From: a virus
Strand: one strand, 5' to 3'
Length of the DNA stretch: 45,471 bases
IMG/VR virus record: IMGVR_UViG_3300025656_000004
Span: 1-45,471 of that record
Shown here piece after piece: positions 30,356 to 45,471 of this stretch. The position numbers and the translations under genes were made by a program. The notes beneath the pieces are model-generated. The model was given only the letters and a program-made list of their open reading frames with translations. It searched no databases and was not told the DNA's origin. The stretch's first letter is position 1; every line of letters begins with the position of its first letter.

Positions 30356-30406
30356 GTTTTCTCCTGTGTAGTTTTAAAGTATGAATTTTTTATTTTTCAT
30401 ATGGAT

Positions 30407-30455
30407 ATTATATATTATTAATATGATAAATGTGAAGCATAATTTGTGAGTTTAT
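30407..30455 (-). promoter_or_regulatory. Phage promoter P4
   Basis: Minus strand: ATAAACTCACAAAT (30455-30442), a 17-base spacer region ending in TATCAT, then ATATTAATAATAT (30424-30412) running into TATAAT (30412-30407). The 14-bp ATAAACYCACAAAT element is shared with P1 and P3. It lies 52 bases before the first gene of the 28.8-30.4 kb unit. Confidence 0.6.
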
Positions 30456-30513
30456 GATTTTAAATTAGAGGCCCATTTTTACAAATAGATATCGCGCGGA
30501 GGCGTGCGTACAA

Positions 30514-30547
30514 CACTAATTAACGCCGTTGTGAGCTCTAATTAGTG
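30514..30547. repeat. 9-bp perfect inverted repeat in a 230-base gap
   Basis: cactaatta (30514-30522) and taattagtg (30539-30547) are perfect inverted repeats with a 16-base loop. A second pairing, agacc.../ggtttagtct, lies at 30554-30575. The gap from 30356 to 30589 otherwise holds only promoter P4. No U-run is seen, so termination here would not be classic. Confidence 0.5.
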
Positions 30548-30589
30548 GTTCTTAGACCGTGATAAGGTTTAGTCTGAAGCTTAGAAGGG

Positions 30590-31069
30590 TTACGTAGAGA
30601 ACAGCGAGTCCACGGTTGTGGTAGGTACGTCTTGCACTCGCTCTAAGCATTCGCTAGCGTTCGCTTCGTTGGCGTTCGCTTCGTTGGCGTTCGCTTTTTT
30701 ACCTACGAATACAATACGCTGGTTTTTAAGTGTGACTTCGTAAGCGTTCGCTTCGAACATGTGTAACCATGTCGTCCACTCAGATGGAGCTATTATAACC
30801 TTACTAAAAGCTTCTTTATGCAGGTATACGTACTTAAATAATAGCTCTAACTCTTTGTCTGTAGCTATAATCCAGTCATAAGGCAGCTCTGTGCAGTTGT
30901 AATCCCAAGAGAAATAGTACCAACTATTTTTTATGGTATACTCAACATCATTGACGTGCAAAAGCTTAAGCAATTCACGCTGGAACGCTTTAGTTTTATA
31001 CCAGTTACCAGTTTCATGCTTAGCATATAACCTAAGGTATAGGAAAAGTAATTTAGCCTCGATACCCAT
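30590..31069 (-). CDS. Unknown early protein with ANANE tandem repeat
   Basis: A protein of 159 residues if started at ATG 31069 (a GTG 18 bases upstream is also possible; neither has a clear RBS). The N-terminus is helical and basic (GIEAKLLFLYLRLYAKHETG), the middle rich in Trp and Tyr (NSWYYFSWDYNCTELPYDW). Near the end KKANANEANANEANASE encodes a 5-residue repeat from a 15-bp DNA repeat. It is the first minus-strand gene at the divergent promoter region, opposite the primase, so probably early. Function unknown. Confidence 0.55.
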   Translation of the reverse strand: MGIEAKLLFLYLRLYAKHETGNWYKTKAFQRELLKLLHVNDVEYTIKNSWYYFSWDYNCTELPYDWIIATDKELELLFKYVYLHKEAFSKVIIAPSEWTTWLHMFEANAYEVTLKNQRIVFVGKKANANEANANEANASECLERVQDVPTTTVDSLFST

Positions 31070-31138
31070 ATTAGTCCATTCTAACACAAAACACTAATTA
31101 AAGTTAACATTTATTTTATGTAGATTATTTGGTTGAGT

Positions 31139-31144
31139 TATAAT
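31139..31144 (+). promoter_or_regulatory. -10 box of the replication operon promoter
   Basis: TATAAT in the divergent intergenic region, 137 bases before the primase-helicase start. No matching -35 box lies at the usual spacing (TTATGT at 31116 is poor), so the site may need an activator. A second AT-rich candidate, TATAAA, lies near 31161. Confidence 0.45.
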
Positions 31145-31206
31145 ACTTTTTGTTAGATGATATAAACTTAAACAAGTTTCTATCTCCTAGATAATCATCT
31201 ATCACT

Positions 31207-31280
31207 AGCAAATTGTTGAACTCGTCCTTAGCGATTTGCTTTTTAACTCATTCGGGAAGGACGAAAACTTGAGGACGAGC
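31207..31280 (+). promoter_or_regulatory. Structured leader with anti-Shine-Dalgarno
   Basis: CTCGTCCT at 31221-31228 is an exact complement of AGGACGAG at 31272-31279, the ribosome binding site of the primase-helicase gene; with G-U pairs the helix reaches 11 pairs. The same element can instead pair with AAGGACGA at 31257-31264. AGCAAAT (31208-31214) and ATTTGCT (31234-31240) could form a third helix. Two mutually exclusive helices, one of which hides the start site, suggest translational control. Confidence 0.5.
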
Positions 31281-33515
31281 ATGTCAAGTAACATAACAAA
31301 TTTATTTGAATTTACAAAACCATTTTTAGACAAAGAGCTTAGATTATTTCCGACAAAGGATGGGCACATGCCCAAAGAGTGGCCGGTTAAGGCTACAAAC
31401 AATAAACTAAAGTTAGCTGAATGGTTTAAAGAATTCGATGCAAATGGTTATGGCGTCAACCCAGGTAATAAAGCAATTATCATCGATGTAGATGTTAAAG
31501 ACGGCAAAGAAGGTAAGACCAGTCTAGCTTATTTAGTCAACACTTATGGTTTAACTTTAGATACATTCACTGTCAGGTCTAAATCTGGTGGCGTTCATCT
31601 TTATTACCAGTACCCAAAACATATACCAGATAATAAGTACGTGCTGTCAACAGCGCCTATGAAATTAGTTAATAAGTTAATACACGGAGTAGACGTTAGA
31701 GGTAATAAAGGCCAGTGTGTTGGGCCAACTGCAGACAACAATTACAAGTTAATAAAAGATCTCCCATTAGCTGAATTACCAAAAGAATTAGCCATTGAAA
31801 TACCTACTGGTGACACCCAGTCTGTTGCGATAGATATAACATCTGCAGAAGCTTTGATTTATGATGACCCTTCACTTAAAGGCGTCATACCGGATTCAAT
31901 CGACCACCCACGGCATCAAACACTTTTATCTCTAACCGCGTCGTGGGCTAGGAAAGTACCACTAGATACTGCAAGAGTTTTACTCAAAGAAGCAATTGGG
32001 CGAGTTACTAAGTATAAAGGTGATACAGACGACTTCTCTTATGAAGCTTACTTGCCTAGACTTGAAGACGCATATAAAAAGTTTTCACCTGTTACTAATG
32101 ATAAACTACAGTACTTAGTAGATCATTTAGTCTATGTAACACACGGTGATAAAGTGTTTAGGTTAGATAAACCACGTAACATCGCTAGTATTAAGATGCC
32201 TAATGCTAGATCTGAATATGCTAACTGGACTTATTGGGCAGAAAATGCAAACGGCAATCCAGTTGAACGAAAAGCGTTCGCTGAATGGTTGAAACATCCT
32301 GATAGACGATACGTACACAACACAGGTTATAAACCTGTAAAAAGTTTATACTACAATTGCCCCATACAGGGTTGTGAAGTTATTAATACTTTTAGAGCGC
32401 CAAATAATGTTTTAGAGGGTACAACAGTTACAGATAAATCTGTCCAGCCATTCTTAGATTTAATGAGCTTCTTATGGGCAGAACACGCAGATCATATGAT
32501 TGATTGGTGTGCACACTTACTACAAAATCCAACTAAGAAAGTTCTATGGGCGCCTATTCTTATTACACCTGTCGAAGGTATGGGTAAGAACTTAATGTTT
32601 ACCATAGTCTCGAAGTTATTAGGCGAGTGGAATACAAGTCAGATTCAAGCGTCTTTGTTTAAGAAATCGTTTAATACGTTTTTGGTACAAAACCAGTTAA
32701 CACTTGTGAATGAAGTACAAGATCTTAACAAACAAGAGCGTAGGCAAATGCTAGGTCAAATGAAGACCTATATAACAGATTCAGTACAATCTATTGAAGG
32801 CAAAGGCGCAGATGTATACCAAACAGAGATTTACACTAATTTCTTGTTTTTCTCAAATGAAGCAGACTCAATCGAAGTAGAAAAGAAATCGCGTAGATTT
32901 TTTGTGCACATAAATAAAAACCCTAGACAAGAAGATAAATTCTACATAGATATCGTCAAGTGGATGGGAAGCGAAATAGGCGCAAATAACTTAAGACAGT
33001 GGTTATTTAATAGAGACATAACTAAGTTTGGTTGGGATAGACATGCTATTGAGACAAAGTCTAAATTAGAAGTCACGGAGAGTAATAAGTCAGCTGAACT
33101 ACAGACTTTAGAAGAACACATACAAGTCGGTTACTCTATTTTCGCATCAGATATTATCACTAAAGATTCTTGGAATTTCTATCTTAAATACATGTTCCCT
33201 AACGGGCGTCGTATATCAGCAGCACACGCTAGATTTTTGTTTAAAGAGGTTACTCAATCTGTTAAGATGGACTATGCTGGAGAGCTAAAGTCTAGACAGC
33301 TTAGATTACAATCAATAGTAGGTTCAGACGACCCAGATCTACTATATAAATCTAACAGTATAAAAACCACAGCGTTTACGATTCGTAATCATGGTGGTTA
33401 TGATACGGCTAAAACAGAAAAAATTAAAAACGAATACGACAAAGCATTACTCGCAGCTAAACAACCAATAAAGAAGTTAGTAGATACAGACGTGCTAACA
33501 CTTAAGGAGGCATGA
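31281..33515 (+). CDS. Primase-polymerase / D5-like helicase
   Basis: A protein of 744 residues from ATG 31281 (RBS GAGGACGAGC; upstream in-frame codons are rejected). Residues 1-170 form a prim-pol domain: IIIDVDVKDG (66-75, metal-binding Asp pair), SKSGGVHLYY (100-109), VDVRGNKGQCVGP (about 137-149). Residues 380-620 form a DUF5906/D5-type SF3 helicase: Walker A TPVEGMGKN (429-437), then NEVQDLNKQERRQMLG and FFSNEADSIEVEKKSRRFFV. It should prime and unwind at the fork. The first gene of the plus operon. Confidence 0.88.
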   Translation: MSSNITNLFEFTKPFLDKELRLFPTKDGHMPKEWPVKATNNKLKLAEWFKEFDANGYGVNPGNKAIIIDVDVKDGKEGKTSLAYLVNTYGLTLDTFTVRSKSGGVHLYYQYPKHIPDNKYVLSTAPMKLVNKLIHGVDVRGNKGQCVGPTADNNYKLIKDLPLAELPKELAIEIPTGDTQSVAIDITSAEALIYDDPSLKGVIPDSIDHPRHQTLLSLTASWARKVPLDTARVLLKEAIGRVTKYKGDTDDFSYEAYLPRLEDAYKKFSPVTNDKLQYLVDHLVYVTHGDKVFRLDKPRNIASIKMPNARSEYANWTYWAENANGNPVERKAFAEWLKHPDRRYVHNTGYKPVKSLYYNCPIQGCEVINTFRAPNNVLEGTTVTDKSVQPFLDLMSFLWAEHADHMIDWCAHLLQNPTKKVLWAPILITPVEGMGKNLMFTIVSKLLGEWNTSQIQASLFKKSFNTFLVQNQLTLVNEVQDLNKQERRQMLGQMKTYITDSVQSIEGKGADVYQTEIYTNFLFFSNEADSIEVEKKSRRFFVHINKNPRQEDKFYIDIVKWMGSEIGANNLRQWLFNRDITKFGWDRHAIETKSKLEVTESNKSAELQTLEEHIQVGYSIFASDIITKDSWNFYLKYMFPNGRRISAAHARFLFKEVTQSVKMDYAGELKSRQLRLQSIVGSDDPDLLYKSNSIKTTAFTIRNHGGYDTAKTEKIKNEYDKALLAAKQPIKKLVDTDVLTLKEA

Positions 33516-35362
33516 TGTACTCATTAGACGTAGAGACTTCAGCTATTAATGGTGGTGATGCAGACGCATTTGGTTTAGAACCATGGCGTGTTTATCAAGG
33601 TACAGCAACAATTACAGTTATATCTGTAGCTGGACCTGACGGTTACCAAAAAATACTAAAGGATTTAGACGAGCTACCAAATCTACTAAAAGAACTAGCA
33701 GGTAAAAGGGTTTTCGCACATAACGCGAAGTTTGATGCGGCGTGGCTAATAGCTCATACTGACTATGACTTAGTAAACGCGATTAAATGGGAAGACACAA
33801 GTCTTTTAGCTAAATGGGTTATGAATTCACAAATGACTGAGAAGAGAACTTGGTCATACTCACTTAAACATTTGGTTGGCCATTTTTTACCTGACGATCC
33901 TATGACTGAAGAGTTCTTAGACGTAAAAACAGATGTGCACGTACCAGGTCAAGACCAAGATTATTGGGATAAGCGAGTAGTTATGGACGCTGTGTTAACT
34001 TTAAAGCTAGCTCACCACTTACTTGGGTTACTACCTGAATCGATGGTTAGAGGTTACACTATTGAACAAAGATGTATTGCGTCTGTAGCCAGATCTTGGT
34101 TAGACGGCATCTTATTAGACGGTGATCAAGCTCAGTCTATGACGCCAGACATTAGAGAAGGTCAAGCTAAGATACTTAAAAAATTAGATTTACCGTCAAC
34201 AGTTATAACTTCGCCTAAACAATTAGGCGAGTACATGTTTAACACATTAGGTCTACAACCTAAAAACTTCTCTAGTAAGACTGGTGCGCCTTCAACCGCT
34301 CAAGATGACATTAAATTACTGCACTCAGATCTTGCACTAACAAATCAAACAGAGTTAGCTGGAAAGCTAGAAGCTATTTTAGAGTTTAAACACTTGAAGA
34401 CGCTAGAGACTAAGTTTATTAAAGGCGTTGTTACATCAGCGGAGTATAACTTAGACGGGACGACTCATCCTAGCCCAAACATGTTTGGTACATATACAAG
34501 TCGTTTCACTTACTCAGCTAAAAACCTTAAAAAATACCCTACAGGTGTAGCTATTCACCAAATGCCTAGAAAAGGACCTGTTCGTACGTTTATTAAACCA
34601 TTACCTGGTTATAAGCTAGCAGAATTTGACGCCGCAGGTCAAGAATCTAGACTTATGGCTATTATGTCAGGTGATGAGAACATGTTAAAAGTATTTGAAG
34701 ACGGTTTAGATTTTCACTCCATGACAGGGTCTAGAATTTCAGGTATCGAGTATAGCGAATTCGTTGAGCGATTTCATCAAGGCGATAAGGACGTAGTTAA
34801 CCATAGATATAATGGTAAATTTGTTAACTTATCTTGTAACTACAGAATTGGTAACCAAGCCTTAGCTAGAAAAGCTTTCACTCAATATGGTTTATCTATT
34901 GATGTGGCAACAGCTGCACAATGGAATAACGTATTTAAGACTTCATATCCTGGCGTAGTTAAATATTGGGATAGAATAGTTACCAGAAGTAAAAGACTTG
35001 GTTACACAGAAACACTAGCAGGTAAACGATACTATTTAGATGAATGGGGTCAACATGAGTGGGTTACTAGCTCATCAGCTATTAACTTCCCTATTCAAGG
35101 TTCAGGTTCAGATATGAAAGAGTTAGCTATTGCAATGGTAGCGCAGAAATTTCCTAAAGCTCATTTCGCTTTTGACGTTCATGACGCACTATTCATGTAT
35201 TTACCAGATAATGATGGCGTAGTTGACTTAGCTACAGATATTAAACGTTGCCTCAATAATTTACCTTATGCAGAAGCTTGGCAAAGAGATATACCTATAC
35301 CTTTACTTTGGGACGCAGCTTTAGGCACTAGTTGGGGCGATATGAAAGAGATTGACTACTAA
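33512..35362 (+). CDS. DNA polymerase I (family A) with 3'-5' exonuclease
   Basis: A protein of 616 residues; start ATG 33512 or the adjacent 33515, after AAGGAGGC. The exonuclease domain has D6 and E8 (LDVETS), FAHNAKFDAAWL (68-79) and D159 (KRVVMDA). The polymerase motif A is FDAAGQESR (372-380), like T7 DASGLELR. Motif B spans R432, K436, L440, Y444, so the E. coli Phe762 position is Leu. Motif C is DVHDA (555-559), where the usual Glu after HD is Ala. It replicates the phage genome. Confidence 0.92.
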   Translation: MMYSLDVETSAINGGDADAFGLEPWRVYQGTATITVISVAGPDGYQKILKDLDELPNLLKELAGKRVFAHNAKFDAAWLIAHTDYDLVNAIKWEDTSLLAKWVMNSQMTEKRTWSYSLKHLVGHFLPDDPMTEEFLDVKTDVHVPGQDQDYWDKRVVMDAVLTLKLAHHLLGLLPESMVRGYTIEQRCIASVARSWLDGILLDGDQAQSMTPDIREGQAKILKKLDLPSTVITSPKQLGEYMFNTLGLQPKNFSSKTGAPSTAQDDIKLLHSDLALTNQTELAGKLEAILEFKHLKTLETKFIKGVVTSAEYNLDGTTHPSPNMFGTYTSRFTYSAKNLKKYPTGVAIHQMPRKGPVRTFIKPLPGYKLAEFDAAGQESRLMAIMSGDENMLKVFEDGLDFHSMTGSRISGIEYSEFVERFHQGDKDVVNHRYNGKFVNLSCNYRIGNQALARKAFTQYGLSIDVATAAQWNNVFKTSYPGVVKYWDRIVTRSKRLGYTETLAGKRYYLDEWGQHEWVTSSSAINFPIQGSGSDMKELAIAMVAQKFPKAHFAFDVHDALFMYLPDNDGVVDLATDIKRCLNNLPYAEAWQRDIPIPLLWDAALGTSWGDMKEIDY

Positions 35363-35538
35363 TGAGTTGGCATTGCCAAATGGTAGGATTAGAAAGAAGA
35401 TGTATAGAATGGTCTGTATACACAAAAACAGGTTGGGATATTAACCAATCATTTGTCGTCACACAAATTGACGGCGTATTTAAAAAACTAGAGGAGGAAT
35501 GTGTTACACACAGCAGAACAACTAATAAAAAAGGCTAG
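35362..35538 (+). CDS. 58-residue protein, unknown
   Basis: ATG overlaps the polymerase stop as TAATG. The product begins MSWHCQMVGLERRCIEWSVY and is basic. Its 3' end overlaps the next gene's start by 38 bases, so it could be a coupling frame. The clean start and composition support a real small gene, at moderate certainty. Confidence 0.45.
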   Translation: MSWHCQMVGLERRCIEWSVYTKTGWDINQSFVVTQIDGVFKKLEEECVTHSRTTNKKG

Positions 35539-35707
35539 ATGTTTAGCCAAAATGATACTTAAATTAAAAACTGATGGCGAACACGATTGCCACGAAATTG
35601 ATCAACTAGCTCAAGAAGCTAGTTATATAGAATATGAAACGCGGGGAATAAATGAAAAAGAAATTAAGCGAACTAGCAAGACTAGTTTTAATAAAGACAA
35701 TATGTAA
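35501..35707 (+). CDS. Small helical protein, unknown
   Basis: A protein of 68 residues with GTG start after a strong RBS (GAGGAGGAAT). Helical throughout (HTAEQLIKKARCLAKMILKL), basic, with HDCHEID and a Lys-rich end. It overlaps both neighbours. No family recognised. Confidence 0.55.
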   Translation: MLHTAEQLIKKARCLAKMILKLKTDGEHDCHEIDQLAQEASYIEYETRGINEKEIKRTSKTSFNKDNM

Positions 35708-35912
35708 AGGCGAATACACTTTTGAAACAGGTAAAGACAACTGCGGCACATATGGCGAAGAAGAATTTGAAGCTGCTAATGAGTTAAGACGTAAAGGTCT
35801 TATAGATATTACGTATAGATACTTCGATTTAGTTGTAGGCTATGTAAAAGTAGTTCGCTGTAAAAAATGTAAAAAAATATTACAACAAAAAGGAAAACTA
35901 ATAGAAAAATGA
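35652..35912 (+). CDS. Small protein with C-terminal CxxC motif
   Basis: A protein of 86 residues beginning MKKKLSELARLVLIKTICKG. It ends with VVRCKKCKKIL, a CxxC pair in a basic tail, and has another Cys at DNCG; these could bind one metal. The helical N-terminus and ELRRKGLI segment are winged-helix-like. It overlaps the RecB-like nuclease start by four bases. Confidence 0.6.
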   Translation: MKKKLSELARLVLIKTICKGEYTFETGKDNCGTYGEEEFEAANELRRKGLIDITYRYFDLVVGYVKVVRCKKCKKILQQKGKLIEK

Positions 35913-36583
35913 TAGCACTCTCATACTCAAAACTAAATAACTTCAAACAATGCCCAAGAAAATTCAGACTACAATACTTAGATAAAGTCGAAGAGTTTAA
36001 ATACGTCGAATCACCTGCAGCTGCAAGAGGTACAAAATTACACGCTCAATTAGAAGATTGGGTTAAAGCTAAAATTGAATCAAAACCAAGCGTTAAGTTG
36101 TCTAAAGAATGTGAATCTGCGATACCTATCGTAGAAAAACTAGTTGACCAATATGAAAACGTTTACCCAGAGCAAAAAGTATCGATTAACTTAGACCATA
36201 AAGAAGTAAGTTGGTTTGATAGGTCTACGTATTATAGAGGTATTATTGATTTAATGGTTACAGATGGTGATAAAGCAGTAGTTATTGATTACAAATCAGG
36301 TAAAGTTAGAGACTATGATGGATTTGGTGGTCAACTACATCTAATGGCTATGATAGTGTTTAGCATAAGACCTGAGATTAATAAAGTCACTGCAGCTTAT
36401 CTATTTTTAGATCACAAACAAACTACTACTGTAGAGTTTACTAGAGATGATATGAGCGCGTTGATGAAATACTATAAGAAGCAATTTGATTTGGTTAATG
36501 CTGAGACTGAGTTTAAACCAACTGTTAATAGATACTGCCATTGGTGCACAGCGACTAACGAACAATGTGAAATGAAAAAATGA
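35909..36583 (+). CDS. PD-(D/E)XK exonuclease (RecB/Cas4-like) with Fe-S cysteines
   Basis: A protein of 224 residues. SYSKLNNFKQCPRKFRLQYL at the N-terminus, RGTKLHAQLE with H45, D114 (GIIDL), D127-Y-K129 (VIDYKSGK) and Q142 (GQLHLMAM) are the motifs of the PDDEXK_1 family. C15, C210, C213 and C220 are spaced as the Fe-S cluster of Cas4 and AddB nucleases. Likely a recombination or end-processing nuclease acting with the polymerase and helicases. Confidence 0.88.
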   Translation: MIALSYSKLNNFKQCPRKFRLQYLDKVEEFKYVESPAAARGTKLHAQLEDWVKAKIESKPSVKLSKECESAIPIVEKLVDQYENVYPEQKVSINLDHKEVSWFDRSTYYRGIIDLMVTDGDKAVVIDYKSGKVRDYDGFGGQLHLMAMIVFSIRPEINKVTAAYLFLDHKQTTTVEFTRDDMSALMKYYKKQFDLVNAETEFKPTVNRYCHWCTATNEQCEMKK

Positions 36584-36765
36584 AGCAACATAAACACGCA
36601 GAATTAATCCATAAGTGGGCAGAAGGGTACGAGATACAGAAACTAGCACGACTATGTTGTGATAAATCTTTCGCTCATTGGGAAGACATGGGAGATACTT
36701 CGCCTGCTTGGCATGAAGATGAAGAGTACAGAGTTAAACCATTAGAAAATAATGTCACAACTTAA
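36580..36765 (+). CDS. Conserved small phage protein
   Basis: A protein of 61 residues. HAELIHKWAEGYEIQ, then HWEDMG, PAWHEDEEYRVKP, a pattern widely found in small phage proteins of unknown role. ATGA overlap with the nuclease gene. Confidence 0.7.
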   Translation: MKQHKHAELIHKWAEGYEIQKLARLCCDKSFAHWEDMGDTSPAWHEDEEYRVKPLENNVTT

Positions 36766-36868
36766 AGCATTGCCAAAAGCTTATTGGGAAAGACAAATTA
36801 AATTCAGAGAATCTACTAAAAAGTTAAAGGAGAGATTAAATGGCACAAACACCAGAAAAGAAAGTTAA
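36752..36868 (+). CDS. 38-residue basic microprotein, uncertain
   Basis: ATG 36752 lies inside the end of the previous gene and the frame runs 29 bases into the next. The product MSQLKALPKAYWERQIKFRE continues basic and helical and carries the AAGGAG RBS of the next gene within its codons. No RBS of its own is clear; it may be a coupling frame. Confidence 0.35.
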   Translation: MSQLKALPKAYWERQIKFRESTKKLKERLNGTNTRKES

Positions 36869-37136
36869 AGATTGGGTGTGCAAATGGTTAGATAAAACTT
36901 ACCCTGATCACTATAGATATATGCCAGTACCAACAGGTTTTGGTAGGCGAGGTGTAGCAGATATAGTGTGTAGCATTAAAGGTAAATGGGTATCGATTGA
37001 AGTGAAAACAGATAAAGGTAAACCAACTAAGTTACAAGAGATTGACCAAAGCAAAGTAATAGCATCTGGCGGGGTGGCTATTATCATATATGGCAAAGAT
37101 CAAAACGCTTTAGACGAGTTATATGAAGTTCTCTGA
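36840..37136 (+). CDS. VRR-NUC domain nuclease
   Basis: A protein of 98 residues, all VRR-NUC: PTGFGRRGVADIV with D41, SIEVKTDKGKPTKLQ with E54, K56 and Q66, then SGGVAIIIYG. The stand-alone form is frequent beside phage SNF2-like helicases, and a structure-specific (branched DNA) nuclease role is likely. It overlaps the helicase start by 14 bases. Confidence 0.88.
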   Translation: MAQTPEKKVKDWVCKWLDKTYPDHYRYMPVPTGFGRRGVADIVCSIKGKWVSIEVKTDKGKPTKLQEIDQSKVIASGGVAIIIYGKDQNALDELYEVL

Positions 37137-38487
37137 TTACACGTTTCCATCTAAGTACGACAAACCTTTCGAACATCAAGTAGAGACTGTTGAGTTTCTA
37201 CTTAAGAGTCCTAGAGCGTTCGTCTTATCAGACATGGGCTGTGGAAAAACATTATCCGTATTGTGGGCTCTAGATTTCTTAATGATTAATAAGAAGATTA
37301 ACAAAGTTCTTATTATTGCACCATTATCAACATTAAGAACAGTGTGGGCGAATGAAATATTTATGAGTTTACCTCATAGACGAAGTCAAGTCATACATGG
37401 ATCTAAACCACAACGACTAAAAAGACTTGGTTATAGACACGACTTCGCCATTATTAATTTTGACGGTATTGGCACAGTCGCTGATCAACTATATAAAAAA
37501 TACGACGTAATAGTTATAGATGAGGCCACAGCATATAAAACAGCTTCAACAAAGAGATTTAAAGATTTAAAACCAATTGTGGACGCAGCAAAAGGCGTGT
37601 GGGCAATGACTGGATCTCCTACGCCTAACTCACCTATTGAATCATTTGGGTTAGCTAAAATAACCAATCCAACTAACCCGGATTTACCTAAGTATTTCAC
37701 CAAATTTAGAGAGTCGCTAATGGTGCAGATTAATCAATTTACTTGGATACCGAGAGATGGTTGGGAAGATATTGTAGCTAAAGTATTAAGTCCAGGTATT
37801 CGCCATAAAAGAGATGACGTAATAGATTTACCACCTGTGACTTATGAAGATCGTGAAGTACCTATGAGCCCAGATCAAGCTAAAGTATATAACTCTATGT
37901 TTGATCAATTTGTAGCTGAATATGAGGACGGTTTGATTACAGCTGCTAACTCTGCAGTTAAAGCTATTAAGCTCCTACAAATAGCAACTGGAACGGTCTA
38001 TAACGAAGATCGTGAAGTACAAATATTCGACGTAAAACCTAGGCTTAACGAAATATACGATATTTACCAACAAGATGGTAAAGGTAAATTAATCGTATTT
38101 ACACCTTTTAAAGCCTCAGTAGATATGTTACTTGAATTCTTAAGCGCTAAAGGTTTAGCAGTTAGTAAAGTAACAGGCGATGTAGCGAGTCAGCAAAGAT
38201 CAGATATATTTCATAGCTTCCAACATGGTGATTTAAATGTAATTGTTGCTATCCCCCAAGCTATGAGTCATGGTCTAACTCTAACTGCAGCAGCTACTAT
38301 GATATGGTCAGGACCAGTTGCTTCAGGTGAGGTTTACCAACAAGCTTGTGCTAGGATTACCAGACCAGGCCAGATACACAACCAACTGATCGTTCACTTA
38401 TATTCGTCTAAAATAGAAAATAAGATTTTCAAAGCTTTGAAAAACAAAGAAAGGATGGCAGATGCGTTACTATCGTTATATTCATAG
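37123..38487 (+). CDS. SNF2-like superfamily 2 helicase
   Basis: A protein of 454 residues. Motif I SDMGCGKT (36-43), motif II VIDEATA (near 127), motif III MTGSPTPNS, then the second RecA lobe with KLIVFTPFKASVDMLLEFL, VIVAIPQAMSHGLTLTAAAT and motif VI QACARITRPGQ. This is the compact phage SNF2/DEAD helicase usually paired with VRR-NUC. It probably remodels branched DNA or displaced protein. The operon pauses after it: a 234-base gap follows. Confidence 0.9.
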   Translation: MKFSDYTFPSKYDKPFEHQVETVEFLLKSPRAFVLSDMGCGKTLSVLWALDFLMINKKINKVLIIAPLSTLRTVWANEIFMSLPHRRSQVIHGSKPQRLKRLGYRHDFAIINFDGIGTVADQLYKKYDVIVIDEATAYKTASTKRFKDLKPIVDAAKGVWAMTGSPTPNSPIESFGLAKITNPTNPDLPKYFTKFRESLMVQINQFTWIPRDGWEDIVAKVLSPGIRHKRDDVIDLPPVTYEDREVPMSPDQAKVYNSMFDQFVAEYEDGLITAANSAVKAIKLLQIATGTVYNEDREVQIFDVKPRLNEIYDIYQQDGKGKLIVFTPFKASVDMLLEFLSAKGLAVSKVTGDVASQQRSDIFHSFQHGDLNVIVAIPQAMSHGLTLTAAATMIWSGPVASGEVYQQACARITRPGQIHNQLIVHLYSSKIENKIFKALKNKERMADALLSLYS

Positions 38488-38577
38488 ACCCCAAATTATA
38501 GCGATAAATAATATTATTAATACAGTATAATAACTATAAGTTAAATAAAAACACGCTAAAGAGTAAGTTTTCTTCAT
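38482..38577 (-). CDS. 31-residue membrane microprotein, uncertain
   Basis: Opposite strand to its surroundings. ATG 38577 follows a strong RBS (AAGGAGATAAGTACA). The product starts MKKTYSLACFYLTYSYY and continues as a hydrophobic helix (VLIILFIAIIWGL). Its frame contains the plus-strand promoter P5, and AT-rich DNA often encodes hydrophobic peptides by chance, so the RBS is the main evidence. Confidence 0.35.
   Translation of the reverse strand: MKKTYSLACFYLTYSYYTVLIILFIAIIWGL
38511..38531 (+). promoter_or_regulatory. Phage promoter P5
   Basis: ATATTATTAATAC (38511-38523), AG, then TATAAT (38526-38531), nearly the same as minus-strand P1. It lies 190 bases before the gene at 38722 and would drive the ssDNA-binding and modification genes separately from the primase operon. 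Confidence 0.65.
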
Positions 38578-38606
38578 TGTACTTATCTCCTTATTATTAG
38601 CCAGTC

Positions 38607-38635
38607 TGAGGGTACTGGTGTGTGCAGAACCCTCA
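38607..38635 (+). promoter_or_regulatory. Hairpin in the leader of the middle operon
   Basis: TGAGGGT (38607-38613) and ACCCTCA (38629-38635) are perfect inverted repeats with a 15-base loop. No U-run follows, so it is a leader structure between P5 and the next start rather than a terminator. A smaller inverted pair, actac/gtagt, lies near 38677. Confidence 0.45.
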
Positions 38636-38721
38636 CCTAATTTAACGGAGTTAGCACTCATTAAAATACTCGATTAACTACCGTAAGTAGTACTTCAATC
38701 AAAAATACAAGGAGCACAAAG

Positions 38722-39108
38722 ATGGCAACAATAGACGAAGTAATCGAGAAATATGTAAATCTTAGAGATGAGTTAGATACATCACGAAGAGATTTTAAAG
38801 CGATCGAGAACGACTTAAAAGAAAAGATGACCACACTATCGTTATGGTTAAGAGAACAATCAGACGAATTAGGTGTTGACTCATTCAAAACACATCACGG
38901 TACAGCATACAGAGTCACAAAAGATTTTGTAAGAGTTGGCAACTGGCAAAAAACGTTAGACTTTATTAAAGAAACAGAGAATTGGCAATTTCTTGAGAAG
39001 AGATTAGGCAAAATCGCTGTTAAAGAGTACATGTCTGAAAACGGAGGTGTACCGCCAGGTGTTGAATACTCAACAGAGATCGAATTCCAAATTAGAAAAC
39101 CAAATTAA
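38722..39108 (+). CDS. Conserved ssDNA-module protein, unknown
   Basis: A protein of 128 residues. Coiled coil at 5-45, then LGVDSFKTHHGTAYRVTKDF, NWQFLEKRLGKIAVKEYMSE and GVPPGVEYSTEIEFQIRKP. This layout is shared by phage proteins found directly before the ssDNA-binding protein; a role as its partner or as a recombination mediator is inferred. RBS AAGGAGCACAAAG. Confidence 0.7.
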   Translation: MATIDEVIEKYVNLRDELDTSRRDFKAIENDLKEKMTTLSLWLREQSDELGVDSFKTHHGTAYRVTKDFVRVGNWQKTLDFIKETENWQFLEKRLGKIAVKEYMSENGGVPPGVEYSTEIEFQIRKPN

Positions 39109-39126
39109 ATTATATAGGAGCATACA

Positions 39127-39918
39127 ATGCCAACAGAAATCCAATTACCAGACTACTTAAAATCAATGGTTGATTCGTCTTTAGCAGACGCTACAGCTGG
39201 ATTAATTACAACAGCAGATAAGAAACCAAGAATCTCAACTAAAGGTAGAAAGTTTAGAATCATCGAAGATGGCGAAGAGGTTGCAGCAAGTGAAGGTCCG
39301 CTTCATATTACTATTTTAGCTGCAGAACCTGAAAAAGGTCTAGCTAAAGCTTACTATGAATCAACATATGTGGGCGGGGCGGCTAAACCACCTAGTTGTT
39401 CATCAAGAGATGGTATTTCACCGGACACTTGGGTAGAAAAACCGCTAAGTGATGCATGTATGACATGTGAAAAGAACGCTTGGGGTTCAGCCACGTCAGC
39501 CGCAGGAAAACCTGCTAAAGCGTGTAAAGACTCTAAAAAATTGCTTGTAGCGCGACCAGATAATATTGAAGGTAACGTGTATGAATTGTCTGTGGCAGCT
39601 AGTTCGCTTAAGAAGTTGTCTGATTATGGTAAAACACTAGCGTCAAATCATGTGCCTATGGCTGCAGCGATTACATCAATTAGCTTTGCAGATGCTGAAT
39701 ACCCTTTACTAGACTTCGAATTTAATGGTATTTTAAAAGAAGATGTTGGTCAAAAAGCACTTCAAAGAGCTGAATCTAAAGACTTTGAAGGCGATGCGCC
39801 AGCTTTATCTGCTCCAAAAACAGATGTAAAAGAAGATAAACCTAAACCAAAAAAGAAAGCAACTAAAAAAGCTGACGAGTCAGATAGCGTAGATGATCTT
39901 CTAGGTAGTTGGGGTTAA
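39127..39918 (+). CDS. ssDNA-binding-type protein
   Basis: A protein of 263 residues. The core (about 35-215) is beta-rich with Cys at CSSRDG, CMTCEKNAWG and AKACKDSKKLLVA, a pattern resembling the zinc ribbon of phage ssDNA-binding proteins. The C-terminus is a Lys-rich linker followed by the acidic, hydrophobic tip DSVDDLLGSWG, as used by SSBs to contact partners. It likely coats replication intermediates. Identity rests on layout, so moderate certainty. Confidence 0.65.
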   Translation: MPTEIQLPDYLKSMVDSSLADATAGLITTADKKPRISTKGRKFRIIEDGEEVAASEGPLHITILAAEPEKGLAKAYYESTYVGGAAKPPSCSSRDGISPDTWVEKPLSDACMTCEKNAWGSATSAAGKPAKACKDSKKLLVARPDNIEGNVYELSVAASSLKKLSDYGKTLASNHVPMAAAITSISFADAEYPLLDFEFNGILKEDVGQKALQRAESKDFEGDAPALSAPKTDVKEDKPKPKKKATKKADESDSVDDLLGSWG

Positions 39919-39925
39919 TCCAACG

Positions 39926-41611
39926 ATGAGATATTTATTATTAACTTTAGGACACAATTCGTCAGCTGTATTAGTTGGCGAAGAAGGTCAAGTACTCTGT
40001 GGTTACGAAGAAGAGCGCTTAACAAAAGTAAAAGCTGATTCATCTTTTCCATATAATTCAATCCAAGAAATTCAAAAATATTTTGATATACCTAATGATG
40101 TAACCATTTACATCAGTCATTGGTTTATTAATGGGTCACTCCCAACAACGCCAAATAAGTGGTATGATCAAAAGTATTTATACAAAAACTTTAAGGATTG
40201 TCAAGTTATTTCACTTAGCGCTGACTTTACACACCATGATGCTCACGCTTATTCAGCTTTAGCGTTTTGTGGAAAAAAGGTCAGCAAATCTAAGACGCTA
40301 GTGGTTGTAGCAGACGGCTTCGGTAATTATGGCGAAACTATGTCAATTTATTGGCGAGATGATAACCCTACTACACCTGACATTAAGCTACACCATAGGT
40401 CATTTGGGTTTTCGTCTTCTTTAGGTTTGCTGTTTCAGTACGCCACGTCTTTTCTAGGTTTAAAAGAAAATCAAGATGAGTATAAACTACTTGGTTATGA
40501 AGCGCATATAACAGATATAGTAACTATAGAGCAAATAAATACGTTAAACGATACAGCTGTTAGATGGACTAAGAAGCAATTTAAGGACATCGGTAATTAT
40601 GATGTTAAAGATAGGTACGATCCATTGTGCTCAATTGACGCTTTACCGGCTTTAAAACTTAACTATAGAGAGCACTTTAAAACGGTTTTAGACAGTGTTA
40701 ATGCAAAAGGTATTGCATTTGATAGTTGGGATAGTAGAGTTATTATTGCTTACTATGTACAAAAGCGTATCGAATTAGCTATGAGAGCTATTCTAACCGC
40801 TTATGCGCCGTTCAATGTAATAGCAGTTGGCGGATTATTTATGAATGTAAAACTAAATAATTCAATAGCAAAGTTACTACCTCCAAAAGGTAAGTTATCA
40901 ATTATGCCGTTATCTGGTGATCAAGGCGCAGCTATTGGTATATACCACTCCATCCATAAGAACTTTAAGTTCGATAATTTATATTATGGTAAACGTGATC
41001 TATCTAAGATAGTGTCAGAACCATTTTATAAAGCGGACAATAATTTGATTATCACCAATAGTGAATTACATGCTAGATCGCTAGTATTAGATAAACTTAA
41101 GAAAAATGAAATTGTGAATGTAGTAAGAGGTGCTATGGAGTTTGGCTCAAGAGCTTTATGTCACACAACGACACTAGCTTTACCAACACTTGAAAATATT
41201 CAATACATTAATAAGTTAAATGGCCGGTCGACTATCATGCCAATGGCCCCAGTTATTAGAGATAAAGACGTTGAGTACTTCTTTAAAGGTGGTAATAAGA
41301 TTGTTGAGTCGCTTAAATATATGATCACGACGTTAGACTTTAACAAAGTAACGGATGATATTATTGGCGCAGCTCATAAGATGCCTTTAGAAGATGTGCA
41401 TACTGGCCGACCTCAAACCATCTCGCGAGATGATGAGTTTATGTGGTACATCTTAACAAACCTTAATCCTAGAATGTTGATTAATACGTCGTTCAATATA
41501 CATGGAAAACCGATTGTGTTTGATGGGAAAGACGTATTAATTCATCACAACGGTCAAATGGAAGCAGCGACAGATCGTAAACCATACACAATAGTTATCG
41601 TAGGAGAATAA
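39926..41611 (+). CDS. Carbamoyltransferase (NodU/TobZ family)
   Basis: A protein of 561 residues, usual family length. The N-terminal ASKHA-type domain has LTLGHNSSAVLV (7-18), EEERLTKVK (28-36) and the metal-site motif THHDAHA (102-108). VVVADGFGNYGETMS, VIAVGGLFMNVKLNNSI and MPLSGDQGAAIGIY follow. The C-terminal domain has VRGAMEFGSRALCH (the GPRALG region) and LINTSFNIHGKPIVFDG. The family transfers carbamoyl from carbamoyl phosphate to a hydroxyl with ATP. Beside a dCMP hydroxymethylase the likely substrate is 5-hydroxymethylcytosine in DNA (inference). First of five modification-linked genes. Confidence 0.92.
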   Translation: MRYLLLTLGHNSSAVLVGEEGQVLCGYEEERLTKVKADSSFPYNSIQEIQKYFDIPNDVTIYISHWFINGSLPTTPNKWYDQKYLYKNFKDCQVISLSADFTHHDAHAYSALAFCGKKVSKSKTLVVVADGFGNYGETMSIYWRDDNPTTPDIKLHHRSFGFSSSLGLLFQYATSFLGLKENQDEYKLLGYEAHITDIVTIEQINTLNDTAVRWTKKQFKDIGNYDVKDRYDPLCSIDALPALKLNYREHFKTVLDSVNAKGIAFDSWDSRVIIAYYVQKRIELAMRAILTAYAPFNVIAVGGLFMNVKLNNSIAKLLPPKGKLSIMPLSGDQGAAIGIYHSIHKNFKFDNLYYGKRDLSKIVSEPFYKADNNLIITNSELHARSLVLDKLKKNEIVNVVRGAMEFGSRALCHTTTLALPTLENIQYINKLNGRSTIMPMAPVIRDKDVEYFFKGGNKIVESLKYMITTLDFNKVTDDIIGAAHKMPLEDVHTGRPQTISRDDEFMWYILTNLNPRMLINTSFNIHGKPIVFDGKDVLIHHNGQMEAATDRKPYTIVIVGE

Positions 41612-41914
41612 ATGGACACACTAGTAGAAAAAATCGTTAAATGGGGGAGTGATAGAAAGATCACTACAAATGGGAAACCGATTACACAGGCAATTAAAAC
41701 TCTTGAGGAGACTCACGAATTATTAGAGGCAGTTAACACCAATAATAAAGCTGAGATTCAAGACGCAATTGGTGATATCGTAGTTACGTTGATTATGCAG
41801 ACAGAGTTACAAGGTATGTCATTTAAACAATGTATCAGATCAGCTTATGAAGAGATCAAAGATCGTAAAGGCTACCTAAATGAAGTCGGTGATTTTATTA
41901 AGGAGGTCAAATAA
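41612..41914 (+). CDS. MazG-like nucleotide pyrophosphohydrolase
   Basis: A protein of 100 residues. The metal-binding motif E32-E33-x-x-E36 (LEETHELLEA) and E48-x-x-D51-x-x-x-D55 (EIQDAIGDIV) mark the MazG-type all-alpha NTP pyrophosphatases. In a phage with modified cytosine, dCTP (kept out of DNA) is a logical substrate; MazG proteins may otherwise act on ppGpp or aberrant NTPs. It starts directly after the carbamoyltransferase stop with RBS TAGGAGAATAA. Confidence 0.85.
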   Translation: MDTLVEKIVKWGSDRKITTNGKPITQAIKTLEETHELLEAVNTNNKAEIQDAIGDIVVTLIMQTELQGMSFKQCIRSAYEEIKDRKGYLNEVGDFIKEVK

Positions 41915-42489
41915 TGGCTATTATCTTAGAGGGTTTTGATAATTCAGGTAAGTCAACTTTAGCTAATTACCTATCTGAAAAACTTAAGATGCCTATTTAT
42001 CATCCAGGCGGGCCGCCTAAAGACGATGAAGCAGCTTTTAAATGTTTGCTTGAACAACAACAGTTGGCGAGTAAGCCAGTTATTATTGACCGAGTAACAT
42101 CAATCAGTCGTCAATGTTACGAACCAGATACGCTTAATAGTCACGAACTGTGTGTAGCGCTAGATAAACTTTTAAGTAGTAAGAGAGTTATTCTCGTTTA
42201 TTGTAGACCACCAAATAGCGTACTACACGACTGGAAAGGTCATGAAACAAAGGACTATGACTCAACAGATCACATTGAGTTTATCATGGACCAAGCAGAC
42301 AGCATTATTAATAACTACGATAAACTAATGACTCAATTTGCACATATTTCATACGATTGGACTCAAGACGCTGATAGCTTAGATTGGCTTAGCGACAGGT
42401 TACTGCTAACTCAGCATATAACAGGTTATAACAAAATTCTGTTAGATGAGTTAGCGCTCACGTTCAACAAAACTAAAGCTAGCGCTTAG
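41914..42489 (+). CDS. P-loop (deoxy)nucleoside monophosphate kinase
   Basis: A protein of 191 residues. P-loop GFDNSGKST (7-15) preceded by MAIILE, as in thymidylate kinases, and D59-R60 (VIIDRVTSISRQ) in the place of the DR(Y/F) motif. VILVYCRPP follows and TSISR suggests a nucleotide-binding loop. In this cassette it probably phosphorylates 5-hydroxymethyl-dCMP to the diphosphate; kinase action on hydroxymethyl groups in DNA is an alternative. One-base overlap with MazG (TAATG). Confidence 0.82.
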   Translation: MAIILEGFDNSGKSTLANYLSEKLKMPIYHPGGPPKDDEAAFKCLLEQQQLASKPVIIDRVTSISRQCYEPDTLNSHELCVALDKLLSSKRVILVYCRPPNSVLHDWKGHETKDYDSTDHIEFIMDQADSIINNYDKLMTQFAHISYDWTQDADSLDWLSDRLLLTQHITGYNKILLDELALTFNKTKASA

Positions 42490-42510
42490 TTACTAACTAA
42501 AGGAGACAGA

Positions 42511-43320
42511 ATGCGCACCACAAACGCAATATACTACAACCATTTAAGAAATATTATGAATGATGGTTTAGACTCAGCTTCACCAAGAGGTTTAGCTATT
42601 AAAGAGAAGTTAGCACATCAATATAGATTTGACATGACCACACCTGCTATCACTATACCAGAGAGAAAGATTGGTTACAAGTTTATGGCAGCAGAAGCAG
42701 CTTGGATCTTATCTGGTAACAACAGAGTAGATCAAATTGAGAAGTACTCAAAGTACATATGGGAGTTTAGCGATAATGGTATATTCTACTTTGGCTCATA
42801 TGGCCCAAAGATTATTGATCAATTGTCATATATCTTAGACAGCTTAAAGAAAGACAGAGATTCTAGACAAGCTGTAATCAACATATGGCGAGAGAATCCG
42901 TATCCAACTAAAGACATGCCTTGTAGCACAACGTGTCAATTCTTAATTAGAGATAACAAGTTAAATATTATCTGGAATATGCGTTCGTCTGACGGAGTAC
43001 TTGGTGTTGTATATGACCAATTCAATATAGCTATGCTAGCAGGTTATGTTTTATTATTACTCAATGAAGTTAGCGATGACTTTAAAGACGTAACATTAGG
43101 CGAAGGGATTATTAACATGGGTTCTGCACATATTTATGAGACGAACTTTGGTAAAGTAGCTGAAATATTAAATTCAGAGAGTGCGCCAAAGTTTACTTAT
43201 GAACCATTTGACCCACTTAATCAGTTTAAATCTTACAAAGATTTAATAGATCACCTTTGGGCAATAGCTGAAGGTAAAAATTCAGGCCTATCTGATTTCT
43301 TTATAGAGGCTATAAGATGA
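42511..43320 (+). CDS. dCMP hydroxymethylase (thymidylate synthase fold)
   Basis: A protein of 269 residues with the thymidylate synthase plan: R26 (SPRGLAIKE), DSRQAVI with R119, catalytic C138 (MPCSTTCQF), R158-S-S-D161, H207-x-Y209. The residue 31 positions after the catalytic Cys is Asp169 (GVVYDQFNIA), whereas dUMP-using synthases have Asn there (C146 and N177 in E. coli). The Asn-to-Asp change is the known mark of dCMP hydroxymethylases such as T4 gp42. The enzyme should add a hydroxymethyl group to dCMP using methylene-tetrahydrofolate. Confidence 0.82.
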   Translation: MRTTNAIYYNHLRNIMNDGLDSASPRGLAIKEKLAHQYRFDMTTPAITIPERKIGYKFMAAEAAWILSGNNRVDQIEKYSKYIWEFSDNGIFYFGSYGPKIIDQLSYILDSLKKDRDSRQAVINIWRENPYPTKDMPCSTTCQFLIRDNKLNIIWNMRSSDGVLGVVYDQFNIAMLAGYVLLLLNEVSDDFKDVTLGEGIINMGSAHIYETNFGKVAEILNSESAPKFTYEPFDPLNQFKSYKDLIDHLWAIAEGKNSGLSDFFIEAIR

Positions 43321-43850
43321 TGGGTCGAGTATCAGGTGTCCCTTATCAAGTTGAATTACCAGGTATTTTTACCGGCTCAACACTCAGGCCGGCCACAGAT
43401 CAGATGTTTATGTCAATTGCGTTAGTGGCTTCTACACGAGCCACCTGCGTTCGCCGTAGAGTTGGTTGCGTGCTAGTTAACAATAAAAACCATATTTTAA
43501 GTCTTGGATATAACGGCCAACCGTCTGGTTTTGAACATTGTATAGATAACCCGTGTGGCGGGTCATGTAACGCATCAGGAGAAGGTTTAGATGAGTGTGA
43601 AGCAATTCACGCTGAGGCTAATGCTATAACAAGATTAAAAGAACCAGATAACGTACATACTTGCTATGTGACTACTGCGCCGTGTGTGTCTTGCCTTAAA
43701 TTATTGTTAGCTACGTCTTGTCAGCGAATTGTATACTTACACGATTATCCTCAAGGAGGTAATTTTGATTTATGGGCAAAAGCAGGTAGACTATGGGAAC
43801 ACTATGACCCATTAGATTATAAATTTAACATGGTAGAGGTTATGAAATGA
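43317..43850 (+). CDS. dCMP deaminase
   Basis: A protein of 177 residues with zinc-binding H98-A-E100 (IHAEANAI) and P-C123-x-x-C126 (APCVSCLKLL), plus RVGCVLVNNKNHILSLGYNG and NPCGGSC typical of dCMP deaminases. The first 27 residues (VSGVPYQVELPGIFTG) are an extra N-terminal segment. It turns dCMP into dUMP, feeding thymidylate and lowering dCMP that escapes hydroxymethylation. ATGA overlap with the hydroxymethylase gene. Confidence 0.9.
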   Translation: MMGRVSGVPYQVELPGIFTGSTLRPATDQMFMSIALVASTRATCVRRRVGCVLVNNKNHILSLGYNGQPSGFEHCIDNPCGGSCNASGEGLDECEAIHAEANAITRLKEPDNVHTCYVTTAPCVSCLKLLLATSCQRIVYLHDYPQGGNFDLWAKAGRLWEHYDPLDYKFNMVEVMK

Positions 43851-43972
43851 GTAAATTTTTTATAGAAGTGGCGACGATAGTTATTATTTTCGCCTTAATT
43901 TTTTCAGCTGTTTTTGCATCTATTGCACTCGCTGTTAACACTTACGAACTATTTATAAAGGCAATATTATGA
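43847..43972 (+). CDS. 41-residue membrane protein
   Basis: ATG overlaps the deaminase stop (ATGA), RBS AGAGGTTATGAA. Starts MSKFFIEVATIVIIFALIFS, one long membrane helix to about residue 30, then a short polar end (NTYELFIKAIL). Its stop overlaps the next start (ATGA). Unknown role. Confidence 0.65.
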   Translation: MSKFFIEVATIVIIFALIFSAVFASIALAVNTYELFIKAIL

Positions 43973-44184
43973 GAAAAGAAACGACACACTGTTTTATATC
44001 CGCAGTACAGATTACAGCATTAAAAGACATTATCGAAGGCATTCGTTTAGATGAAGACGAATTTCACGCATTAACTTTGAATAGTTTACTAGATAAGGAT
44101 TTAGTTAGAGTTAACAGCAATCAAGTTAAGATGACCAGTTTTGGTAACCAATTTATTAAAAACTTTAAGTTAATAGGAGAGTAA
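43969..44184 (+). CDS. Small HTH-like protein
   Basis: A protein of 71 residues. HALTLNSLLDKDLVRVNSNQ plus a short strand pair looks like the end of a winged-helix domain (recognition helix and wing). Possibly a small regulator. Coupled to its neighbours. Confidence 0.55.
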   Translation: MRKETTHCFISAVQITALKDIIEGIRLDEDEFHALTLNSLLDKDLVRVNSNQVKMTSFGNQFIKNFKLIGE

Positions 44185-44185
44185 G

Positions 44186-44479
44186 ATGGTAGAAAACACA
44201 TTATTTTTTATGGCTGGGTTAACTGTAGGTGCAACTAGTGTGTATCTACACAAGTGTAAATGCGATAAAGCTAGGTTAAGAAGTAGAATGGCTAATGATA
44301 AAACCCAAACAGCTGTAATTTTAGATCATTTAGAGCGCGGTAAAACCATCACAGTAGATGAAGCTAAATCGTTATATAACATTAGCAACTTAGGATCAGT
44401 TTTACATGCTCTGAGAAGAGCTGGAGCTACAATAGAGACTACTATAGTCAATAAGAAAGGTATCTACAAGCTTAAATGA
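44186..44479 (+). CDS. Membrane-anchored winged-helix-like protein
   Basis: A protein of 97 residues from ATG 44186 (RBS GGAGAGTAAG). Residues 4-21 (NTLFFMAGLTVGATSVYL) form a membrane helix, then a Cys/Lys/Arg-rich link. Residues 38-97 form a helix-turn-helix-type domain (TAVILDHLERGKTITVDEAK, SVLHALRRAGATIETTIV) known from phage accessory proteins. An internal ATG at residue 35 could give the soluble domain alone, but it lacks a good RBS. Unusual arrangement. Confidence 0.6.
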   Translation: MVENTLFFMAGLTVGATSVYLHKCKCDKARLRSRMANDKTQTAVILDHLERGKTITVDEAKSLYNISNLGSVLHALRRAGATIETTIVNKKGIYKLK

Positions 44480-44805
44480 ATACATACTTCAAAGACAATC
44501 GTGAGTGGGTGTCGTATAAACATCGTCGACCTGAAAGAGTTTATACGTTAGATGATGGTACTAAACTTACAGCTAGAATGTTAGTGGACGCTTTAAATTT
44601 AAAGCGACCCGCTGCTACATACCGGTTAAACAATTACACTAACCCTGAAGTGATATTCTCTAAAAAAGGTTCTAAATGTAAAAACGTAGAACCTAAAAAG
44701 ATAAGTATAAACCAATCAACGCGTGGTTCAGTTAAAGTTAGCGCAGCTGCGTCAAAAAGAAACTTTTTTGACCCAATGAGTAGGTTATTTCTAAAGATGG
44801 CATAG
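44476..44805 (+). CDS. Basic DNA-binding-like protein, unknown
   Basis: A protein of 109 residues, strongly basic. An HTH-like segment lies at about 30-52 (KLTARMLVDALNLKRPAATY), in the style of phage regulators that read TLDDG-x-x-T. The tail is Ser/Lys-rich and ends in a hydrophobic MSRLFLKMA. Probable nucleic-acid-binding protein; overlaps the upstream gene by four bases. Confidence 0.55.
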   Translation: MNTYFKDNREWVSYKHRRPERVYTLDDGTKLTARMLVDALNLKRPAATYRLNNYTNPEVIFSKKGSKCKNVEPKKISINQSTRGSVKVSAAASKRNFFDPMSRLFLKMA

Positions 44806-44815
44806 GAGAATGAAG

Positions 44816-45028
44816 ATGAGTGAAGCACTTGAAACATATATGCACTATCACATCTCACAGGTCAGAGACTTAGATGTAGACACTGCTAAGTTGTGGGCTG
44901 AAGGACAAGACCAGTGGTGTATGAAGCATCACGGTATGTCTAGTGTAGATTACTACAATAAGTTAGACGCTAAGCGTAACGATAAGATGATTAATGAGTG
45001 GCGTAAACAGGAGAATGAAGATGAGTAA
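44816..45028 (+). CDS. Small acidic protein, unknown
   Basis: A protein of 70 residues. ATG 44816 is chosen over 44810 because AGGAG lies seven bases before it. The product MSEALETYMHYHISQVRDLD is helical and His/Trp-rich. Its 3' end includes the RBS of the next gene. No family. Confidence 0.6.
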   Translation: MSEALETYMHYHISQVRDLDVDTAKLWAEGQDQWCMKHHGMSSVDYYNKLDAKRNDKMINEWRKQENEDE

Positions 45029-45170
45029 ATCAGAGATTATGAGAGTGTTACTTTGTTTGTCACGCATTGAAGGTAAGGTTGCTATGGACTTAGATGACTA
45101 CCTGAGTGATGAGCTAACTGAGGTTGTTGATATGTTGGCTAAGAAGATACTAAGGGAGAATAAGCCGTAA
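45021..45170 (+). CDS. 49-residue helical protein
   Basis: ATG lies inside the end of the preceding gene with RBS AGGAGAATGAAG. The product MSKSEIMRVLLCLSRIEGKV is a two-helix protein with an acidic middle (DLDDYLSDELTE). Last gene of the plus-strand operon, facing the minus-strand small genes. Unknown role. Confidence 0.65.
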   Translation: MSKSEIMRVLLCLSRIEGKVAMDLDDYLSDELTEVVDMLAKKILRENKP

Positions 45171-45195
45171 TTAAACCGAGTCGAAATCGACCCCT

Positions 45196-45366
45196 TTACT
45201 TAGTCAAGGAACAATTACAGTCGCAAGGCTTATCTTGTCCTTGCATCATTGTACTACCCATCATCATTGCCTTACTTGGCATCTGCATCATTTGTCCAAA
45301 AAAGGCTAAAGATGATACGGTTATCGTAATACCTATTAAAAACGCTGTTATTGAACATTTATTCAT
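45196..45366 (-). CDS. Met- and Cys-rich small exported/membrane protein
   Basis: A protein of 56 residues, RBS GAGGAAGATATT. Residues 5-24 (SITAFLIGITITVSSLAFFG) form a signal-anchor helix. The exported part is Met-rich (MMQMP, MMMGSTMMQ) and ends PCDCNC, with three Cys in five positions. Met-rich plus CxCxC stretches can bind soft metals such as copper, but a lysis or membrane role is as likely given its place at the end of the late operon. Convergent with the plus operon 26 bases away. Confidence 0.6.
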   Translation of the reverse strand: MNKCSITAFLIGITITVSSLAFFGQMMQMPSKAMMMGSTMMQGQDKPCDCNCSLTK

Positions 45367-45384
45367 AATATCTTCCTCGGGTCT

Positions 45385-45453
45385 TTAACCATAGTTTAAG
45401 GTTAAGACTAGCATTAAAACTATGAATAAACTAATCTGTAGTTCTATCTTCAT
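45385..45453 (-). CDS. 22-residue membrane microprotein
   Basis: ATG 45453, AGGATGAAGAA upstream. Peptide begins MKIELQISLFIVLMLVLTL, a nearly pure membrane helix. It lies 19 bases before the Met-rich protein gene and, on a circular map, directly after the membrane ORF at the left edge. Very short; may be leader or microprotein. Confidence 0.4.
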   Translation of the reverse strand: MKIELQISLFIVLMLVLTLNYG

Positions 45454-45471
45454 TTCTTCATCCTATGTTGA

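Follow-up and report, generated by a model that had tools for sequence, protein, structure and literature searches.

A phage gene cassette predicted to make 5-carbamoyloxymethylcytosine, an example of a published system

The DNA analysed here (the window) is the complete IMG/VR virus record IMGVR_UViG_3300025656_000004 of 45,471 bases, from a phage known solely as a metagenomic record, and the five consecutive genes at 39926-43850 raise the question of which modified base, if any, they serve to make. The original prediction read them as a pathway to carbamoylated hydroxymethylcytosine. With a probability of about 0.88, the predicted enzymes would make 5-carbamoyloxymethyl-dC in the phage genome DNA, where cytosines are very probably replaced by 5-hydroxymethylcytosine capped with a carbamoyl group; that the window phage's own DNA bears this base, and how far it replaces cytosine, we infer from the gene content. 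The pathway is well supported, and as its chemistry and gene set were already published in 2021 (Yang et al. 2021, eLife 10:e70021; PMC8670742) and the cassette occurs in cultured phages, the locus is an example rather than a discovery.

In the half of the genome on the minus strand lie the genes for the head and the tail (terminase, portal, major head protein, tape measure and tail fibre), and the tape measure together with a central tail fibre J is consistent with the earlier label of a siphovirus. The plus-strand half carries the replication genes, namely primase, family A DNA polymerase and helicase. Direct DNA similarity gave no match between positions 30000-45471 and the phage records compared, and a scan of bacterial genomes gave five loci, weak or metagenome-derived, from which a host was not assigned. 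All five open reading frames claimed for the cassette are present on the plus strand in the order carbamoyltransferase (CT), MazG-like protein, P-loop (d)NMP kinase, thymidylate synthase (TS)-family enzyme and dCMP deaminase, and their families are borne out by Pfam, PHROG and motifs. The intergenic gaps of 0, -1, 21 and -4 bases amount to operon-like packing. The features concerned are as follows.

33512-35362, plus strand: family A polymerase, in the replication half.
39127..39918, plus strand: conserved cassette-associated protein with a putative role, 263 aa (conservation, position).
39926..41611, plus strand: predicted 5-hydroxymethylcytosine carbamoyltransferase (NodU/TobZ-type O-carbamoyltransferase), 561 aa (Pfam, identity, tree, motifs).
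41612..41914, plus strand: MazG-like nucleotide pyrophosphohydrolase, 100 aa, proposed to deplete dCTP as its putative substrate (Pfam, PHROG).
41914..42489, plus strand: P-loop deoxynucleoside monophosphate kinase, 191 aa, a proposed hm-dCMP kinase with a putative substrate (Walker A, PHROG, fold).
42511..43320, plus strand: predicted dCMP hydroxymethylase of the thymidylate synthase family, 269 aa (Pfam Thymidylat_synt 3e-28; Asp169).
43317..43850, plus strand: dCMP deaminase, 177 aa (Pfam dCMP_cyt_deam_1 1.2e-18; zinc motifs).

Whether such a pathway would start from dCMP or from dUMP turns on the TS-family enzyme. A TS with Asn at E. coli position 177 is selective for dUMP, one with Asp for dCMP (work cited in PMC8670742), and positions 177 and 147 are those that separate modified from unmodified contigs (PMC8670742). 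Relative to E. coli ThyA, the window enzyme has the catalytic Cys138, Ser139 at the position of His147 and Asp169 at that of Asn177, and it thus lacks the Asn of a canonical thymidylate synthase. The claim that it carries the dCMP-hydroxymethylase residue holds, as Asp169 aligns with both ThyA Asn177 and the Asp of T4 gp42, which has Asp and Thr at positions 177 and 147, respectively. In the MAFFT alignment position 177 is Asp in 65 of 65 phage rows, a count that includes a few duplicates (the window, T4, Xp15 and one contig twice), and Asn only in E. coli ThyA. Position 147 is more variable across the 66 rows (Thr in 61, Ser in three, Asn in one and His in ThyA), and the window Ser139 departs from the usual Thr. 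A gapped HMMER alignment to ordinary thymidylate synthases would place Asn ('FN') at position 177 by means of a three-residue insertion; this placement was rejected because Asp169 takes that position both in the MAFFT alignment, which includes relatives and T4 gp42, and in a comparison with the CMP hydroxymethylase 5b6d that runs across the Asp169 motif without gaps.

The competing possibility is that the TS-family enzyme uses dUMP, either as an ordinary thymidylate synthase or as a dUMP hydroxymethylase, and that the cassette feeds only dTTP or hydroxymethyluracil. Thymidylate synthase or deoxyuridylate hydroxymethyltransferase is the annotation given to relatives, the authors of the phage AXL3 study interpreted its module as thymidylate synthesis (PMC7504290), and the dCMP deaminase produces dUMP, all of which would fit. 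However, the dCMP-selecting Asp at 177 (PMC8670742) is present in every relative, the purified CT showed no reaction with 5hmdUTP (PMC8670742), and AXL3 DNA resists enzymes with G/C in their sites: of a panel of 37, only two cut it, and the sites of these two are A/T-only (PMC7504290). We therefore consider a dUMP-based pathway highly improbable. Several 'thymidylate synthase' annotations near CT genes or the module are probably dCMP hydroxymethylases, to judge from this residue. The Asp of dCMP type is present in the genes of the Pelagibacter phage HTVC200P (L005:4962-5780) and of the phages at L006 and L007, whose annotation as thymidylate synthase or deoxyuridylate hydroxymethyltransferase is probably wrong.

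The enzymes flanking the predicted dCMP hydroxymethylase are those of nucleotide metabolism. The MazG-like protein matches Pfam MazG (3.3e-7) and PRA-PH (3.1e-6) above the cut-off, as well as PHROG MazG-like (4.7e-28). The kinase has the Walker A motif GFDNSGKS at residues 7-14; it showed no match above the cut-off in Pfam and matched 'thymidylate kinase' in PHROG (4.7e-15), while its predicted model (mean pLDDT 88.6) resembles YorR, thymidylate kinases and deoxynucleoside kinases (best Foldseek E 2.1e-7). The kinase gene is conserved in the cassette across loci. The deaminase has the zinc motifs HAE (98-100) and PCVSC (122-126; PCxxC) and also matches MafB19-deam. The five Pfam families of the neighbourhood described in PMC8670742 are all matched by window genes, MafB19-deam of the deaminase included.

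That study selected phage contigs for modified cytosine and found TS, PRA-PH, dCMP deaminase and MafB19-like deaminase to be the commonest CT neighbours (PMC8670742). Its purified CT, which originates from a metagenomic contig, forms 5-carbamoyloxymethylcytosine with either 5hmdC in DNA or 5hmdCTP as substrate, but accepts neither 5mdCTP nor 5hmdUTP; it prefers single-stranded DNA, being several-fold weaker on double-stranded DNA (PMC8670742). The original prediction mentions that this base has been reported from environmental phage DNA; in that study it was shown by means of the enzyme from a metagenomic contig (PMC8670742). The window system shares with it a homologous CT in one supported branch, the TS, PRA-PH/MazG and dCMP deaminase neighbours and an Asp-type TS; it differs in that the window CT is 36% identical to the purified enzyme and its chemistry is a predicted one. 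The neighbour list at the level of the abstract of that paper does not name a kinase, and the window cassette has one.

The window CT matches Carbam_trans_C (3.1e-23) and Carbam_trans_N (2.2e-15) above the Pfam cut-off, and its metal-binding-histidine motif THHDAH (residues 102-107) is invariant with the purified enzyme of PMC8670742. In a maximum-likelihood tree, a branch with 100/100 support (56 rows) unites the window CT, the purified hmC carbamoyltransferase and 54 others; on its other side are five 'Nol-like' phage control CTs, whose branches are long and whose placement among themselves is left uninterpreted. Within the branch, the window CT groups with those of loci L011, L012 and L027 (100/99), outside the immediate group of the purified enzyme. 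The published study singled out residues differing at TobZ W408, G421 and R423 (PMC8670742). Judged by motif spacing, window residues V399, C412 and T414, which are as in its branch, would correspond to these, so that the TobZ numbering is putative. The window CT has a cysteine/threonine signature in common with the purified enzyme. All 56 branch members, the purified enzyme included, have Thr at the T414 position, and all five controls have Arg there, where the motif reads RALGNRS in place of the branch version RALC/GxT. The window CT also has Ser408 in place of the usual Pro of the FGPRAL motif, and the acceptor may have changed, given that identity to the purified enzyme is only 36%.

A related question is whether the CT might modify a sugar, an antibiotic-like metabolite or a surface glycan, with its nucleotide-gene neighbours a coincidence. 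In PHROG the family goes by the name Nol-like, and further CTs of the superfamily in phages sit among glycosyltransferase or structural genes, which would suit such a role. Nevertheless, the window CT is separated from those CTs at 100/100 and differs from them at the diagnostic T414 position, and members of its branch nearly always have an Asp-type TS nearby, making action on a sugar or metabolite very unlikely indeed. A search with the CT found 55 IMG/VR loci. Among 43 loci, counted without de-duplication, in which the sequence extends 4 kb or more to each side of the CT, a TS lies within 6.5 kb of the CT in 41, a kinase in 28, a deaminase in 26 and MazG in 24; the 8 kb around each of the five control CTs contained no TS, kinase or deaminase. 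A profile seeded with the window MazG recovered six loci, and wider seeds (Xp15, Effie and AXL3) recovered 31, so MazG is divergent rather than absent.

The contiguous order CT-MazG-kinase-TS-deaminase was found in 21 distinct other loci when the same five-gene neighbourhood was searched for in other phages, as the original prediction had proposed, and with this recurrence the arrangement is not one of chance. Cultured phages among these loci are Xp15 (gp39-gp35), Effie and HHU4. In Xanthomonas phage Xp15 the five genes are ordered as in the window and accompanied by counterparts of its upstream gene (gp40) and its helicase, and the CT, gp39, is 41% identical to that of the window; Xp15 is a distinct phage of 55.8 kb, with a kinase annotated as 'putative DNA polymerase subunit'. 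Acinetobacter phages also carry this compact gene set. The compactness of the set, which was the ground given for interest in this locus, is consequently not peculiar to it, the same set being known from PMC8670742, Xp15, Acinetobacter phages and the 21 loci. Bacteroides phage BF486P2 represents a variant in which a pair of Asp-type TS genes accompanies the CT and the other cassette genes are missing. Two different Asp-type TS-family genes near a single CT were seen in BF486P2 (L004) and in the related contigs L025, L040 and L041.

In the pathway proposed here, the TS-family enzyme would hydroxymethylate dCMP to hm-dCMP, as its residues suggest, and the kinase, together with a host NDP kinase, would convert hm-dCMP to hm-dCTP. 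If the analogy with T4 holds, competing dCTP and dCMP would be kept low by the MazG-like enzyme together with the dCMP deaminase, the latter additionally supplying dUMP for dTTP, and the phage family A polymerase would incorporate the modified nucleotide. The likely benefit is protection from bacterial restriction enzymes. The T4 pathway (gp42, gp56, gp1, deaminase and glucosyltransferases) follows the same logic: hm-dCMP is made and phosphorylated, dCTP is removed and the hydroxymethyl group is capped. Here gp56 and gp1 would be the counterparts for dCTP removal and the kinase, and gp42 agrees with the window TS in its Asp and Cys residues. In T4, however, the cap is glucose and is added to DNA, and the genes are scattered over a 169 kb genome.

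The CT would transfer the carbamoyl group from carbamoyl phosphate via carbamoyl-AMP to the hydroxymethyl oxygen, a reaction demonstrated for its relative, and the point of transfer may be hm-dCTP before incorporation or single-stranded DNA at the fork. Of the pathway as originally proposed, the gene families, the dCMP-type residue, the CT branch and the 2021 paper speak for it; the final step needs a qualification, since a purified relative also converts 5hmdCTP and carbamoylation need not follow incorporation. It is possible, if less favoured, that the CT of this same cassette acts on free hm-dCTP only. The polymerase would then take up 5-carbamoyloxymethyl-dCTP already made, and capping would precede replication, in contrast to glucosylation in T4. 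With the purified relative, conversion of 5hmdCTP reached about 60% and no sequence preference was seen, and the study itself raises this possibility (PMC8670742); the CT gene also lies inside the nucleotide-metabolism operon. On the other hand, with a single-stranded oligo conversion by the same purified enzyme was close to 100% (PMC8670742), and the gene directly upstream of the CT possibly encodes a single-stranded-DNA-binding protein. Homologues of this 39127-39918 gene lie directly upstream of the CT in 16 distinct other loci, and the protein family has invariant cysteines and a conserved C-terminal Trp; the model of the window protein is of low confidence (pLDDT 65) and gave no significant match in a PDB fold search.

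Phages AXL3 and PW916 have the arrangement methyltransferase-MazG-kinase-TS(Asp)-deaminase, and together with ct3Et533 they share the MazG-kinase-TS-deaminase order of the window, with the TS Asp in AXL3 and PW916. They differ in having a Methyltransf_23-type enzyme at the CT position, and the final base of this variant therefore probably differs from that of the window; the enzyme may cap hydroxymethylcytosine with a methyl group. The Asp residue of the AXL3 TS suggests that the AXL3 module serves hydroxymethylcytosine synthesis, not the thymidylate synthesis read by its authors. Its restriction resistance supports only the hm-dC part of our reading and not the carbamoyl part, because a methyltransferase stands in place of the CT. 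A more speculative and rather unlikely extension is an interchangeable module, in which an hm-dCTP core (MazG, kinase, Asp-type TS and deaminase) is combined with a swappable upstream 'decorator' (CT or Methyltransf_23-type), decoration would occur on the nucleotide before replication, and all cytosines would enter DNA already capped. Methyltransf_23-type genes at the CT position were seen at L007:2590-3414 (AXL3), L006:934-1758 (PW916), L078:3799-4548 and L079:3942-4838, and within the phage collection such an enzyme upstream of the module was found only in these phages.

Among the papers covered by the literature search there was no second one on 5-carbamoyloxymethylcytosine, no report of this base in the DNA of a phage isolate and no virion-DNA chemistry for any isolate with the cassette. 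The main value of the present survey is that it names isolates that can be examined directly for the base, namely Xp15, Effie and HHU4 with the whole cassette and BF486P2 with the variant.

In addition to the cassette, the replication half of the window contains a Cas4/RecB-like exonuclease gene at 35909-36583. The restriction-resistant phage AXL3 also has a Cas4-like nuclease, which was remarked on by its authors (PMC7504290).
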